From: Acidobacteriota bacterium | GTDB taxonomy: Bacteria; Acidobacteriota; Terriglobia; Acidiferrales; UBA7541 | Assembly: GCA_003167215.1 (NCBI GenBank) | Contig: PMTV01000014.1 | Coordinates: forward strand, 357,238 to 421,237 | Direction: 5' to 3' | DNA length: 64,000 nucleotides | Part shown: positions 23,646-29,299 of the stretch, one piece after another | Layout of the letters: each line of letters starts with the position of its first letter | How positions within the stretch are numbered: position 1 is the first letter of the stretch | Made by a program: the position numbers and the translations under genes | The notes under the pieces: model-generated | Seen by the model: the letters and a program-made list of their open reading frames with translations, nothing else | Databases searched by the model: none | Told to the model about the DNA's origin: nothing

Positions 23646-24428
23646 GTGATCATTCGGAATGCGGTCGACGCCATTGCCGCAGTGCTCTTCCCTGCGCCCT
23701 GCCGAATTTGCGGCCAAACGCTCATCACCGCAAGCCGCATCCCCATCTGCACGGATTGCCTGGCCTCCTTTCAACCCATCACCGACCCCATGTGCGATTG
23801 CTGCGGCCGCCCGTTTATTTCCAAGGTTGCCGCTGAGGCCATTCGGCCTCTCTGCCGTCTCTGCCGCCTGGACTCTTTTTCTTTCTCGCGCGCGCGAAGC
23901 TACGCGGTCTACAACGACGCGCTTCATAGCGCAATGTTGCTCCTAAAGTACGAAGAGGTCACAGGGCTCGGTGATTGGTTCGCTGCCAGACTGGCCGAAG
24001 TCCTCGCTCGGCAACCTGCCGAATTCCGGGCGGACGTTGTAGTCCCCGTTCCGCTGCATGCCGACCGCTTTCGCGAACGCGGCTACAATCAAGCAGACCT
24101 GATCGCGCGGCCGTTGGCCCGCCGGCTGGGATTAAAGCGGGGATCCTATCTCCTAATGCGTACAAAACCGCGTCCAGCTCGCTTAGTCCTCTCCCGCAAA
24201 GAACACTGGGACTCGGTACGTGGCGCGTACGCGACCCGTGAAGGCGTCCGAGTTGACAAATTGCGCGTTCTGCTGGTAGATGATGTATTGACGACTGGCG
24301 CGACCCTGGATGCGTGTTCGCGAGCTCTAAAGCAGGCGGGCGCGGCATCTGTGCTAGGCTTAACCGTGGCTCGAGTCGTCACCGGTTTGCCGCCCTCAAA
24401 TCCACAACCGCGGCAGAAAGCGTACTAG
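23646..24428 (+). CDS. ComF-family phosphoribosyltransferase-like protein
   Basis: A 260-residue protein with the ComF layout. An N-terminal zinc-finger region has several CxxC pairs (CRIC, CTDC, CDCC, CRLC). The C-terminal type I phosphoribosyltransferase domain has the PRPP loop [13 protein letters not shown] and the [18 protein letters not shown] segment. ComF takes part in uptake of single-stranded DNA in competent bacteria; homologs are also common where competence is not known. The start is GTG at 23646. The last 15 residues are a polar tail. Confidence 0.9.
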
Positions 24429-24502
24429 TCAGAGAAACCACTGGGGTGCGGCGAGCATCTCTGATAAGGAAGGGAATCTTCAAGCGCAGCGAAGGCGGAC
24501 AA

Positions 24503-25129
24503 ATGGATAACCGTCTCAAGAGCGTCTTACGCCCTCGGCCAAGGATCGGCCTAGGCGGCACCCCGTCCGATGCGCTCGCTTCCCGTCTGCCACAATCCTC
24601 GGCGAGCCGCCCTTCTGTAATGCAAGCGCCCGTACTGGTGCTGAACGCAACTTTCGAACCCATCAACGTCACAGCCGTGCGACGCGCTCTGGTCCTGATG
24701 CTCAAAGGCGTAGCTCAGGCGGAAGAAACAAATCACACCGAAGTCCATACTACGCAGAAGGCGATTCAAGTGCCTTCGGTGATTCGGCTTCTGACCTACC
24801 GCCATATCCCACAACAAAGCCGCGCGCTCTCGCGAAAAAACATTTTGCTGCGCGATCGCAATACTTGCCAGTTCTGCGGTCACGCACTTCCCGCTTCTGA
24901 ACTTACGCTCGACCATGTGATGCCCCGCTCGCGGGGTGGCCATTCTTCCTGGGAAAATCTCGTAGCATGCTGCTACGGCTGCAATAATCGCAAAGGGGAT
25001 CGCACGCCGGAAGAAGCCGGACTCAAACTTCAGCGCCGCCCGCGTCCTTTTACTCTCCACACTTCGCGCCAGTTGATGCGCCTTATCGGGCATCGCGACG
25101 AGAAGTGGCGCAAGTACCTTTTCTACTAA
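24503..25129 (+). CDS. HNH endonuclease-domain protein
   Basis: A 208-residue protein. Residues from about 38 on ([21 protein letters not shown]) are an N-terminal module usual in stand-alone HNH proteins of soil bacteria. The nuclease domain has the zinc-type CQFCG, then [11 protein letters not shown] with the HNH histidine, and [24 protein letters not shown] completing the fold. The ATG at 24503 follows AAGGCGGA; a frame extension to 24314 overlaps comF and is rejected. It lies 74 bases after comF. Targets of this HNH family are not established. Confidence 0.85.
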
Positions 25130-25297: not shown

Positions 25298-26809
25298 TCA
25301 TTGGCGGAAAACTACCTGTAATCCCTCGCGCCACTTTTCGTTTAGACCAACACGCGTGATTTGAATTTCTGGCGCAAAATATTTTAAGAGTGTCTCCGCC
25401 GAGGGATGAAAGCGCAGCCCCGGAGCAACCAGCCATATCAGCGGCGGTTTCGGATCAAGTTCGACGCCCACAAAATACCCGTTGCGTTGAAAATTGCCTT
25501 CGCGTTGGTGGCGCCGCACTCGTAGCCAATAATCGACCGCCTGTATTGGTAATTGAATATCTTCCGACGCTTTCAATTCAATGACGACCAAACGGCCACG
25601 CAGCGTAACCCCAAGCAAGTCAATTACGCCTCGATCGCCCGCTGCAAGAGCAGGAACCTGCGAATAGAGGTGTCGCGGATAGAGTTGCGCGTCCAGTTTC
25701 GTTGGATCTTCAAGTATCAGCGTTTCCAGCCAGCGCTCCGGCGCACGTCGATACAGAGGATGATTCATCTCCTCAGCCTCGGATCTGCGGCGCAGTTCCA
25801 GATCACGCAGCAGTCGTGTGAGCGCGGGTTCAGTTCCACGGGATAAAGGTTGCTGCACGTCTCCTAGTCCAAACAAGACACCCTGCTCGGTCCAACGAGC
25901 GAATTCCAGCCCGCGGAAACAGACTGCAGTTTCGCCCGTTCCCGCGGCGACGCGGGTCTCGATTGGCAACGCAGTATTTGCCGAGAGGGAGCGAATGAGT
26001 GCGACGCTTTCTCGCGCCGCACCAAGGGCCATTTCAATCTCGCGTCGGGGAATAAGCCGGCTCTCCACATTTCCAGCATCCTTAGGGTCAACCTTTTGCA
26101 TCGGTCCATCAGGTTTGCGCCACTCGTAAGTCTCCGTCCGAGCCGCGGGCGAAAGCGCCAACAAACGCTCGCGAAGCGGACGGCTGGTACCTTCCGGCAC
26201 GAACAACCGCAAGCCCCCAACTGCGCGACGATCTGCGTGCGAGCGCGTCCAATCGAGCCACAAAATTCCGAATGCGAGAATCCCCTCGATAACTGCAGCG
26301 CTTTCATTTGGAGATACCGCCAGAAATGCCCAACCCTGGGAACCTTCATGCATATGCCCGCGAACATATAGTTCAGAAAAAGTATGCTCGAGGTCTTTTG
26401 CAGCGCTGAGCGATTCAACTGTGGCATCAGGAAAACTTTCGGAGAGTATGCGCCGAAGGCGCGAGCGGAATTGTTCTCGAGTAATACGTCCGGCAGAGCG
26501 CGGCGAATCAGCTCGTAAAAACTCAAGTCGGCCCGGTTTGGCATTCCCGAACCGCTGCACTTCCAGAAGGATGCGATTCTCACTGCGCTCTTTCACGCGC
26601 AACACGCGGCGCGTCAGATTCCGCTGATCCGACCACAAGTGAACCAGTGCCGCCTTGCCTTCGCGCCGCACCTCGTAGTGCAACGCAGCGAGTTCGTCCA
26701 GCCATTCGCCGTCCTCGCGAACTTCCACGCTGACCGACGCTGCCATCTCTCCTAAAGCGCGGTCGAGCTCGGCCCAGTCATCCGCGAACGCGTTCGAGGA
26801 CATCACCAC
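25298..26809 (-). CDS. large uncharacterised protein with a C-terminal PD-(D/E)XK-like nuclease signature
   Basis: A 503-residue soluble protein. Residues 385-440 fit the core of a PD-(D/E)XK nuclease: Asp397 in GDRGVIDLLGVTL, then Glu411-x-Lys413 in RLVVIELKASED, and a following helix containing a Gln (LPIQAVDYW). This pattern is typical of NucS-like and restriction-type nucleases. The N-terminal 350 residues have alternating strands and helices and no family I recognise. It is the last gene of the queA-phosphoesterase-anchored-protein series, 39 bases after its neighbour. A nuclease role is inference from the three-residue pattern, not from overall similarity. Confidence 0.7.
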   Translation of the reverse strand: MVMSSNAFADDWAELDRALGEMAASVSVEVREDGEWLDELAALHYEVRREGKAALVHLWSDQRNLTRRVLRVKERSENRILLEVQRFGNAKPGRLEFLRADSPRSAGRITREQFRSRLRRILSESFPDATVESLSAAKDLEHTFSELYVRGHMHEGSQGWAFLAVSPNESAAVIEGILAFGILWLDWTRSHADRRAVGGLRLFVPEGTSRPLRERLLALSPAARTETYEWRKPDGPMQKVDPKDAGNVESRLIPRREIEMALGAARESVALIRSLSANTALPIETRVAAGTGETAVCFRGLEFARWTEQGVLFGLGDVQQPLSRGTEPALTRLLRDLELRRRSEAEEMNHPLYRRAPERWLETLILEDPTKLDAQLYPRHLYSQVPALAAGDRGVIDLLGVTLRGRLVVIELKASEDIQLPIQAVDYWLRVRRHQREGNFQRNGYFVGVELDPKPPLIWLVAPGLRFHPSAETLLKYFAPEIQITRVGLNEKWREGLQVVFRQ

Positions 26810-26848: not shown

Positions 26849-27340
26849 TTATTCCAAAATCAGGCCGGTGACACGAATCGTGGGATTTTGTTTGTCCCAT
26901 TGCGCGGGAAGATGCTCCATCTGGATCTGGAAATCGCGATGCTGTCCGGCATCCAGTGTGGCGCCGCGCCGGTCCACCAGTTGATTCGTATCGCGCAGAA
27001 TTACTTGTTGGAAAGGGTCATGGAATTCCACGGTCACCTCCATCGCGCGTACTTTCTGCGGCCCGTCGTTGGACATTGTTCCTGCCACGTACGTAAAATC
27101 CTGATTCAAAAAATTGGCGGCGTGCGCCAGACGAATGTCCAGAAAATGAACGTTCTGCGCATACGCTTGTTCGCCGGCGCCGAATGGAAGTTTTACAACC
27201 GTCGCGGAATCGTGAGAACGCATCACCCGCGTCAAAACAAGAAAGCCGCCGAAAAGCAGAAGCACAATTGCCGCTCCAGCCGCAAAAGCGATTGGAAACT
27301 GGCTTCTTTCCTTGCTGTACGAGCTTTCTCCGGGCTCCAT
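26849..27340 (-). CDS. membrane-anchored protein with an extracytoplasmic beta domain
   Basis: A 163-residue protein with a single N-terminal transmembrane helix (about residues 16-38, FAAGAAIVLLLFGGFLVL). The extracytoplasmic part reads like an FxLYD/DUF2393-type beta sandwich: the strand FTYVAGTMSNDGPQKVRAMEVTVEFHD, then LDAGQHRDFQIQMEHLP. Such domains are thought to be structural, and no function is established. It lies between the phosphoesterase (15 bases upstream) and the nuclease-like gene, so co-expression is likely. Confidence 0.65.
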   Translation of the reverse strand: MEPGESSYSKERSQFPIAFAAGAAIVLLLFGGFLVLTRVMRSHDSATVVKLPFGAGEQAYAQNVHFLDIRLAHAANFLNQDFTYVAGTMSNDGPQKVRAMEVTVEFHDPFQQVILRDTNQLVDRRGATLDAGQHRDFQIQMEHLPAQWDKQNPTIRVTGLILE

Positions 27341-27355: not shown

Positions 27356-28099
27356 TTAGCGGCCGAATGCAAGCCTTCGTACCAGCGGGTCTGGTAGCCC
27401 AGCCGCTGTCATGCGTGCTTGCACCGCTTCTATGTCGTAGGGAACGCGCCAAAACTCAACAGTATTGTTGGCGATATCCGCAATCGCGAATGCAGCGCGT
27501 GCGTCACCGTCGCGCGGTTGCCCCACAGAACCGGGGTTTAGCAGGTAGGTTGTGCCCGGCTCAATGACCAGAGTTGAAGATAAAGACTCTGCCGCTGGCT
27601 TGAAGTGCAGCACCCCCACCTTATTGTCACGCAGGGTGAATCCTCCCTGCAGATGTGTGTGCCCGAAAAAAGTAATCGGCGAAGGAGCGTCCAGTAAGCC
27701 TTCCAGAGCCTGCGCGGGCGCGAAAACATATTCATCCTCGTCGCGAAATGCTCCGTGAACCAGTGAAAATCCTTCCACCGTTGCCGGGCCGATAGGCAGT
27801 TCTTCAAGCCACTTGCGATTCTCGGGCCGCAACTGGTCCCTAGTCCAAAGCGCGACGTTCCGCGCTACCGGATTGAAGTCATCCGCGTTCGCGATGCCGC
27901 TGCCCGCCTTGTCGTGATTGCCGCGAATCGCAAGAGCGCCGAGCTTACGGATGGAGTCGATCACTTCGTTCGGGTCCGGGCCATACCCCACAACATCACC
28001 CAAACACAGAACCTTGTCCCAGCGGCCCTTCGCAGCCTCTAGGGCAGCGTCCAGCGCCGTTACATTGGCATGGATGTCACTTAGGATTAAATACCGCAT
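27356..28099 (-). CDS. metallophosphoesterase (YfcE/ApaH-like)
   Basis: Calcineurin-like phosphoesterase of 247 residues. The metal-binding motifs occur in order: SDIHAN near the N-terminus, LGDVVGYGPDP, GNHD, and GHTHLQGGF. The family hydrolyses small phosphodiesters or monoesters with two metal ions, and the physiological substrate is not predictable. The short protein without signal peptide or extra domains points to a cytosolic enzyme. The ATG start is immediately before YLILSDIHAN, as in homologs. Confidence 0.9.
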   Translation of the reverse strand: MRYLILSDIHANVTALDAALEAAKGRWDKVLCLGDVVGYGPDPNEVIDSIRKLGALAIRGNHDKAGSGIANADDFNPVARNVALWTRDQLRPENRKWLEELPIGPATVEGFSLVHGAFRDEDEYVFAPAQALEGLLDAPSPITFFGHTHLQGGFTLRDNKVGVLHFKPAAESLSSTLVIEPGTTYLLNPGSVGQPRDGDARAAFAIADIANNTVEFWRVPYDIEAVQARMTAAGLPDPLVRRLAFGR

Positions 28100-28207: not shown

Positions 28208-29299
28208 TCACCGAATCAACATGCAGTCACCGTAACTGTAGAACCGATAGCCCGCTCTTACCGCATGACCATACGCCCGCAAAATGTTCTCGCGTCCCAC
28301 CAGAGTTGCCACCAGCGCCAACAAGCTTGACCGCGGTAGGTGAAAATTTGTCAGTAGCTGATCCACAATGCGAATTGGCTTCCCCGGGTAGATAAAAATA
28401 CCGGCTTGCGCGGTCCCGGACGTAACAAACTCTCCTCGCCGTGAGGATTTCTCAGCCGCGTCTTCGAGTGCACGAACCACCGTCGTGCCGATAGCCAGTA
28501 CCGGCCGGCCTTTGCTCTTCGCATTCGCAATAGCTTGCGCGGCGCCTTCGGATATCTCGTAGGTTTCTTCGTGAATCTTATGATCCTCAAGCCGCTCCGT
28601 TCGCACCGGCTCAAACGTTCCTAGCCCGACATCGAGTGTTATCTCCGCAATCTCGACTCCGCGCTCTCGCACGCGTTTCAGAATTTCAGGCGTGAAGTGA
28701 AGCCCTGCAGTTGGCGCGGCCACCGCGCTTCCCTGTCGCGCGTAAACCGTCTGGTACCGCTCCCGGTCCAGAGGTTCATCCGCGCGCTTGATGTATGGCG
28801 GCAGCGGGATGTGGCCGAGTCGAGCAAGCGCTTCATGAAAACCCGTCCGCGAAGTGAATCGCATTAGCCGCAGGCCATACCCGCCCCGGCCTTCCACCTG
28901 CGCTTCCAACTCGCCTTCGCCGAAAATGATGCGCTCTCCGACGGGGATCTTTCTTCCCGGCCGCACAAGCGTCTCCCAAAGGTCCGGTTCGAGTTCGCGC
29001 ACTAGCAGGACTTCAATCGAAGTTGTCAGATGCTCGTCGCGGGCCGCACTGTTCTGCCCGGGTTTCTCAGAACGAATACCCACACGCCGTCCAAAAAGCC
29101 GGGCCGGCAGCACTCTTGCATTATTGAGAACGATGAGTTCATCGCCGCGCAGCGTTTCCGGGAAGTCATGAAACCGGCTGTCCTGCAGTGTGTCCGATGC
29201 CCTGTCAATCACGAGCATTCGCGACGCGTCGCGCTCCTCCAGGGGATGCTGCGCAATTAATTCCGGCGGTAATTCAAAGTCAAATTCACTCAGTTCCAT
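28208..29299 (-). CDS. queA: S-adenosylmethionine:tRNA ribosyltransferase-isomerase QueA
   Basis: Adds the cyclopentenediol ring precursor from S-adenosylmethionine to 7-aminomethyl-7-deazaguanine in tRNA, making epoxyqueuosine. The 363 residues begin with the typical FDFELPPELIAQHPLEERDASRML. Later blocks are LNNARVLPARLFGRR, TAGLHFTPEIL, GLGTFEPVR and TNFHLPRSSLLALVAT. It starts divergently from the methyltransferase gene and leads the minus-strand group that ends with the nuclease-like protein. No tgt or other queuosine gene is in the window. Confidence 0.96.
   Translation of the reverse strand: MELSEFDFELPPELIAQHPLEERDASRMLVIDRASDTLQDSRFHDFPETLRGDELIVLNNARVLPARLFGRRVGIRSEKPGQNSAARDEHLTTSIEVLLVRELEPDLWETLVRPGRKIPVGERIIFGEGELEAQVEGRGGYGLRLMRFTSRTGFHEALARLGHIPLPPYIKRADEPLDRERYQTVYARQGSAVAAPTAGLHFTPEILKRVRERGVEIAEITLDVGLGTFEPVRTERLEDHKIHEETYEISEGAAQAIANAKSKGRPVLAIGTTVVRALEDAAEKSSRRGEFVTSGTAQAGIFIYPGKPIRIVDQLLTNFHLPRSSLLALVATLVGRENILRAYGHAVRAGYRFYSYGDCMLIR

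Follow-up and report, generated by a model that had tools for sequence, protein, structure and literature searches.

A conserved Acidobacteriota protein predicted to join an EndoMS/NucS-like degenerate half to an active NucS-type nuclease domain

Acidobacteriota are common soil bacteria. The described enzymes that come closest to the protein analyzed here are the EndoMS/NucS nucleases. In the accessible text of one survey, bacterial NucS or NucS-like proteins were reported only from Actinobacteria and Deinococcus-Thermus (PMC5290159), and the available part of another study describes a C-terminal clamp-binding motif in bacterial NucS members (PMC8228993). A further study, as far as its accessible text goes, listed Acidobacteria among the UniRef NucS nodes and reported a cluster of 115 Antarctic soil metagenome sequences, some longer than 500 residues, which contained no UniRef member and showed a conserved N-terminal extension of 100 residues (PMC10140301). 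According to the same text, the 58.8-kDa protein DV-NucS cut uracil-containing and abasic duplexes and degraded single-stranded DNA, activities obtained from 18-h incubations without active-site mutants, for which the authors themselves advised caution. A putative lysophospholipase gene was located directly upstream in all four of the neighborhoods examined there (PMC10140301, accessible text).

The window, that is, the whole stretch of 64,000 nucleotides of Acidobacteriota DNA that was analyzed, encodes the following protein.

25298 to 26809, minus strand: nuclease coding sequence, 503 codons plus stop, GTG start; homologues in 51 of 61 related genomes

An ATG at codon 3 (position 26803), with GAGAAG just 5' of it, is an equally plausible start and would give 501 residues. 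No model in Pfam, NCBIfam, PHROGs, or PADLOC covered the protein, and these libraries yielded weak local matches alone. Used as a single query, the full protein had no matching Pfam model, its matches in the PDB (E of 0.26 to 1.7) were at the level of chance, and NCBIfam gave a hint of endonuclease NucS (E of 0.0056) at residues 355 to 416. The first-pass annotation had proposed a nuclease of undescribed architecture. The lack of a covering model in the four libraries speaks for this view, but N-terminally extended NucS-like proteins of comparable length, which may belong to the same family, were already assayed in 2023 (PMC10140301, accessible text); the proposal was thus retained only in part.

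The annotation was built on a catalytic pattern near the C terminus, and all three residues were found where it had placed them, with 13 residues between Asp397 and Glu411. The codons concerned, and those of further conserved residues, are as follows.

25619 to 25621, minus strand: codon of motif Asp397 (Asp in 162 of 163 rows)
25571 to 25579, minus strand: codons of Glu411-Leu412-Lys413, the motif ExK (Glu and Lys each in 163 of 163 rows)
25736 to 25738, minus strand: codon of Glu358 in the first helix (163 of 163 rows), which pairs with Glu127 of Pyrococcus abyssi NucS
25529 to 25543, minus strand: codons of Gln423 to Tyr427, the QxxxY of the helix after ExK (Gln and Tyr each in 162 of 163 rows), which pair with Q187 and Y191 of P. 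abyssi NucS

The motif alone is weak, because the exact D-x13-E-x-K pattern occurred in 5.3% of 5,000 shuffles of the protein and the looser D-x(8-20)-[DE]-x-K in 54%; it is strong because of its conservation among homologues. The 163 rows come from a set of 175, from which 12 were removed for matching over less than 330 residues; thinning at 98% leaves 161. Since near-copies persist among them, the 133 representatives with less than 80% identity provide the cleaner count, and the Asp, Glu, and Lys were kept in 132 of these, so that the conservation in homologues on which the annotation had staked its reading was observed. The 35 rows taken from loci L156 to L195 kept Asp397, Glu411, Lys413, Glu358, Gln423, and Tyr427 throughout. 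A 40-row alignment (A1), which omits eight fragment frames (L002, L012, L029, L042, and L045) and one short L004 frame and in which the L022 row was shortened at a frame break, showed Asp397, Glu411, Lys413, Gln423, Asp426, Tyr427, Trp428, Glu358, and Trp360 to be invariant. A second alignment (A2) consisted of the window protein and 79 of 118 candidate stretches, with rows L001, L046, and L022 left out. A third, restricted to the nuclease domain (A3), held the window protein and 76 of 77 selected sequences; its list of invariant residues is flattering, because L107, which lacks the triad, had been omitted before the selection.

This one sequence (L107:5980-7497) carries Lys at the place of the catalytic Asp and lacks the conserved Gln and Tyr in a frame that is otherwise open; it is possibly a dead version or an assembly error. 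Its joint loss of the Asp, Gln, and Tyr could be taken to mean that the family binds DNA or RNA but is catalytically dead, a reading that is highly improbable given the near-complete retention of the triad among the representatives.

The C-terminal domain was compared with known structures by using an AlphaFold2 model based on A1 (mean pLDDT of 87.1, pTM of 0.75).

25301 to 25747, minus strand: NucS/EndoMS-type PD-(D/E)XK nuclease domain, residues 355 to 503 (5gkj_B, Z of 11.1)

The model reproduced the strand-strand-helix layout that had been proposed, with Asp397 in strand 396-402, Glu411 in strand 407-412 followed directly by Lys413, and helix 420-437. Together with helix 357-367, strand residues 382-383 and 387-388, and strand 457-463, these elements follow the PD-(D/E)XK order. 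In the VIA-align search, the top row placed residues 357 to 495 on EndoMS (5gkj_B) with a Z of 11.1, 2.1 Å over 106 residues, and 24% identity. The Foldseek search with the whole model ranked EndoMS second (E of 3.7e-4); its top match, the central domain of acetyl-CoA carboxylase (E of 1.5e-4), was rejected at an rmsd of about 20 Å and 7% identity. The A1 profile matched P. abyssi NucS (2vld) weakly (E of 0.091) and in the exact register D160-x13-E174-x-K176. With the A3 profile, Card1 was the best PDB match (E of 0.0018) and 2vld followed at an E of 0.0056, in the alignment that gives the Glu127, Q187, and Y191 pairings listed above. Asp397, Glu411, and Lys413 would cluster in space, as judged from the alignment with 2vld and not from distances.

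The sequence libraries pointed in the same direction at lower scores. The NCBIfam NucS model matched 28 of 40 members at E values up to 1 (best, 1.4e-4), and among 77 nuclease domains searched with Pfam at E values up to 1, weak matches were found to NucS_C (20), MmcB-like (14), PDDEXK_2 (8), and PDDEXK_1 (4), along with unrelated scattered ones such as FAF (4). The NucS family cut-offs were not reached, with 15.8 of 216 bits in NCBIfam and 13.2 of 24 bits for Pfam NucS_C. Separate NucS_C proteins that exceed the Pfam cut-off were observed in 7 of 41 relatives (L196 to L202, frames of 124 to 362 residues); they belong to a different family. The conserved active-site set and the EndoMS/NucS fold and profile matches bear out the proposal of a PD-(D/E)XK nuclease domain at the C terminus. 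The protein is thus almost certainly a PD-(D/E)XK nuclease, as predicted from these data, and its catalytic domain is very probably closest to NucS.

Because EndoMS/NucS provides the closest catalytic domain, the protein might be a NucS-type mismatch repair enzyme that replaces MutS-MutL. Such a replacement is unlikely, because, of 41 genomes, 38 contained the MutL C-terminal domain and 37 contained MutS domain II, the window's own genome included in both counts. The clamp motif of NucS ([E/K][L/Y][T/R]LF) was absent in a pattern search of the window protein, in which the only related pattern was QGVLF at residue 309, and the N-terminal half is unlike that of NucS in having an extra nuclease-like domain. 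We therefore consider this function quite improbable. Another possibility is a nuclease for single-stranded or branched DNA in recombination or replication, of the RecB-like or MmcB-like kind and not specific for damage. The helix with the RecB-type QxxxY, the 14 MmcB-like matches (best E of 9.8e-4), and the degradation of single-stranded DNA by DV-NucS, as given in the accessible text of PMC10140301, are consistent with it; however, the best structural match was EndoMS, and recombination genes were absent among the identified neighbors, so that a role of this kind appears unlikely.

The N-terminal half was reported by the first-pass annotation as 350 residues matching nothing. This description did not hold at the level of folds, where a beta domain and an apparent second PD-(D/E)XK-type domain, degenerate in its active site, were recognized.

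26495 to 26788, minus strand: N-terminal helix and beta domain, residues 8 to 105 (nearest fold, YojF, 1njh)
26072 to 26488, minus strand: apparent second PD-(D/E)XK-type fold, degenerate, residues 108 to 246 (PaqCI and XisH fold matches; residue counts)
25760 to 26071, minus strand: connecting region, residues 247 to 350 (two helices, then four short strands followed by a third helix)

Residues 8 to 105 matched YojF with a Z of 7.3 in the full model and 8.0 in a separate model of residues 9 to 250 (3.6 Å, 88 aligned residues). The following domain is laid out as helix 111-125, strands 129-135, 148-155, and 158-165, helix 171-190, and strand 197-205. In the full model, it was superposed on PaqCI residues 2 to 158 with a Z of 9.6 (2.8 Å, 116 residues) and on XisH proteins with Z values of 8.3 (2inb) and 8.2, and lower matches with Z values of 5.5 to 7.6 included Nt.BspD6I (7.6), EcoT38I, Can2, McrC, and Cap4. 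We take the XisH, Nt.BspD6I, EcoT38I, Can2, McrC, and Cap4 matches to be PD-(D/E)XK folds. For PaqCI, an N-terminal PD-(D/E)xK endonuclease domain is described in the accessible text of PMC10201449. The separate model, built from 80 sequences (pLDDT of 90.7), gave similar values, with a Z of 9.5 for PaqCI and 8.8 and 8.5 for XisH. It also ran along residues 22 to 239 of 5gkj_B, through both EndoMS domains in order (Z of 9.4, 178 aligned residues), at an rmsd of 18.5 Å, so that this alignment shows the order of the domains and not one arrangement.

The Z values of 8 to 10 are only moderately above background, since acetyl-CoA carboxylase chains reached a Z of 6.5 on residues 108 to 246, as did viral RNA polymerase chains, and Foldseek with the model of residues 9 to 250 returned nothing at an E below 0.001. 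The case for a pseudo-nuclease fold comes from the coherence of the top structural rows. The carboxylase relation was set aside as a shared arrangement, and a match of residues 266 to 354 to VP1028 (2od0, Z of 4.8) was too weak for use. Comparison of the two nuclease-like domains with hhalign did not support an origin by internal duplication (probability of 0.9%). With equivalences in the degenerate domain taken from strand positions and not from coordinates, the place of the motif Asp is held by Arg150 (153 of 163 rows), an acidic residue was found there in none of the 133 representatives, and [DE]xK occurred within 158-171 in 2 of them; the window protein has no ExK in this domain. Arg111 (148 of 163), Arg150, and Trp184 (158 of 163) rank among the best-conserved positions of the degenerate domain, and in the connecting region, Gly300 and Arg341 were invariant in all 163 rows. 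Taken from the predicted models, residues 108 to 246 probably form a second, degenerate nuclease-like domain. In the accessible text of papers retrieved on NucS, PDC-S11, PaqCI, and pseudo-nucleases, no description of such a tandem of live and degenerate domains was found.

Next, the distribution of the family was determined. The homologues counted above, several of which are fragments, were found in 18 of 20 genomes of the genus, counting the window's own; for the remainder of the family, order, and class, the figures were 14 of 17, 4 of 6, and 15 of 18, respectively. The matches of each genome lay on one contig. When 297 genomes were sampled from the phylum, 96 gave a match, 86 of them strongly (E of 1.4e-36 or better); the other 10 were weak local matches (E of 4e-6 to 1e-3) in different open frames of 136 to 410 residues. 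A scan of genome contigs gave at least 569 confirmed stretches, of which 80 were kept, all titled as Acidobacteriota groups. None was found in 72,556 plasmid records or 50,697 phage records. A 35% relative lies near a contig end (L205:76-1503), on a single contig of a viral collection.

Variant forms were also observed. At L190:3070-4432, the nuclease domain occupies its own frame of 184 residues, and the overlapping upstream frame weakly resembles the N-terminal half (E of 1e-4 for the whole frame and 0.02 for the best domain); we regard it as a split gene or a frameshift. L191:3965-5893 and L192:3857-5902 are longer, with frames of 643 and 682 residues that have extra sequence before the nuclease domain and match the profile stretch of about 333-360 twice. 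Downstream of the gene, a short frame repeats the last 34 nuclease residues with 62% identity (L133, frame from 8468; L004:3959-4228), as a remnant of partial duplication.

The resemblance of the catalytic domain to Card1 and Shedu SduA brings in a further alternative. Card1 and Shedu SduA are defense effectors, and the window protein could be an anti-phage nuclease of the Shedu, PDC-S11, or Card1 kind. In favor of this, the PADLOC PDC-S11 models matched 40 of 40 members locally (E values up to 1; best, 3.4e-8), and both effectors have a PD-(D/E)XK C-terminal domain that aligns with residues 355 to 502 (6wxw, Z of 5.5; 8ps5, Z of 6.8), Card1 being the top PDB match of the nuclease-domain profile. 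Of 77 members, two had a weak match to Pfam SduA_C (best E of 0.034). However, the PDC-S11 match of the window protein is confined to the nuclease core (profile positions 24 to 95 of 358), and the N-terminal domains of Card1 and SduA differ from those of the window protein. The family is also widespread among relatives, with a constant gene context among the closer ones, and is absent from the phage and plasmid records, apart from the one match in the viral collection. A defense function is therefore improbable, and the predicted chromosomal DNA endonuclease remains the preferred reading.

The first-pass annotation had placed the gene in a queA-phosphoesterase operon. Around the gene, the window contains the following neighbors.

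26849 to 27340, minus strand: DUF2393-like protein, directly upstream (Pfam E of 3.5e-4, below its cut-off)
27356 to 28099, minus strand: calcineurin-like phosphoesterase
28208 to 29299, minus strand: queA
24314 to 25129, plus strand: gene for an HNH endonuclease, convergent with the nuclease gene

In the 80 loci kept from at least 569 matches, many of which are ended by contig ends, relatives of the phosphoesterase were present in 37, the HNH protein in 33, queA in 31, comF in 31, and dksA in 27, and these window neighbors occurred nearly all in closer relatives. In 34 of these 80 loci (L076 to L111 and L133), the gene directly upstream was DUF2393 in the same orientation, and in 16 it lay upstream in the opposite orientation, again for loci taken from at least 569 matches. 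A divergent TldD gene within the limits of the script was detected in 25 of these 80 loci (from at least 569 matches), among L113 to L155, whose titles are mostly Acidobacteriaceae, Acidobacteriales, Terriglobales, or similar; it was combined with an opposite-strand DUF2393 in 13 of the 80 (L114 to L153; same set of at least 569). DUF2393, an uncharacterized protein, thus marks a loosely kept neighborhood. Of loci L156 to L195, two (L191 and L192) belong to the window's class, and the remaining 38 come from other classes. TldD and DinB were found at L191 and L192 and an IMPDH-like gene at L167, and the other 37 had none of the tested neighbors; DUF2393 was found in none of the 40. The operon is therefore limited to closer relatives, many Terriglobales-type loci having TldD/PmbA instead and those of other classes none of it, and the annotation was too broad in this respect. 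Because these 37 loci share none of the tested neighbors, the nuclease gene travels without the operon. We did not rely on a functional link to queA, the phosphoesterase, or DUF2393, given the absence of the last from L156 to L195.

On the basis of predicted folds and conserved active-site residues, we moderately favor the view that the protein is a chromosomal DNA endonuclease of Acidobacteriota, predicted to consist of an EndoMS/NucS-like dead half, a connector, and a live NucS-type domain. In this arrangement, residues 8 to 246 would form the two-domain EndoMS/NucS-like half with its nuclease-like domain dead, residues 247 to 350 the connector, and residues 355 to 503 the live domain. The N-terminal half may hold or recognize DNA, and the C-terminal domain would hydrolyze one strand with a divalent metal at Asp397, Glu411, and Lys413. 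With one cutting center per chain, the enzyme would nick DNA unless two chains pair. If DV-NucS is a relative, the target may be uracil-containing, abasic, or single-stranded DNA, and the enzyme may act in repair beside MutS-MutL and not in place of them. By this analogy, incision of damaged or single-stranded DNA has an even chance of being its job. A more specific and tentative idea, which we hold to be possible at most, is that the single chain is an asymmetric stand-in for the EndoMS dimer, in which the dead half and the live NucS-type domain would make a dedicated nickase. It would open a single strand where a base is deaminated or missing and would serve Acidobacteriota as a general repair pathway alongside MutS-MutL and base excision.

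If correct, these predictions describe a strictly conserved nuclease across Acidobacteriota that is unnamed in the family libraries searched and a natural pair of active and pseudo-nuclease domains within one chain, in which the residues suited to mutagenesis are evident. The family would extend NucS-type nucleases past mismatch repair, and it may give the activity of the Antarctic DV-NucS a taxonomic home.

The relation to DV-NucS was examined by comparing descriptions. Like the proteins of cluster 2 in the accessible text of PMC10140301, some of which exceed 500 residues, the window protein (503 residues) combines a C-terminal RecB-like domain with an N-terminal extension. In 6 of the 40 loci L156 to L195 (L176, L177, L181, L182, L184, and L188), a GDSL-lipase relative was located directly upstream on the same strand, with overlapping frames; Pfam GDSL was confirmed in five of five such relatives tested. 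All six loci are from one family (f31), five of them from one genus, and are therefore not independent; four other loci of the family (L166, L169, L173, and L189) have no lipase gene there, nor does the window. GDSL esterases are often annotated as lysophospholipase L1. In contrast to this likeness, the neighborhood of the window's clade differs, and the reported extension of DV-NucS is 100 residues, whereas the window protein is about 250 residues longer than NucS. The accessible description of DV-NucS mentions no second nuclease-like domain, and its reported Pfam NucS match (E of 3.5e-6; PMC10140301) surpasses the best one among the members tested here (E of 6.6e-4). The lipase loci from a single family and the shorter extension lowered our estimate, and, with the better Pfam match, they mean that DV-NucS may be a neighbor rather than a member; by analogy, we lean toward membership.

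Altogether, the closest described system is EndoMS/NucS (5gkj and 2vld), with which the protein shares the fold of the nuclease domain, the Glu, D-x13-E-x-K, and QxxxY in the same register, and, as judged from the predicted models, an N-terminal half in which a beta domain precedes a PD-(D/E)XK-type fold. It differs from 2vld in its length (503 against 251 residues) and in the extra degenerate nuclease-like domain, and from EndoMS/NucS in that the family coexists with MutS-MutL and the window protein has no C-terminal clamp motif. The fold of residues 108 to 246 resembles the PaqCI endonuclease domain, XisH, and Nt.BspD6I; these are parts of restriction or excision proteins, whereas the domain in the window protein lacks the canonical active-site residues. 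The catalytic type is already known, and the architecture and the family represent a new form of it.
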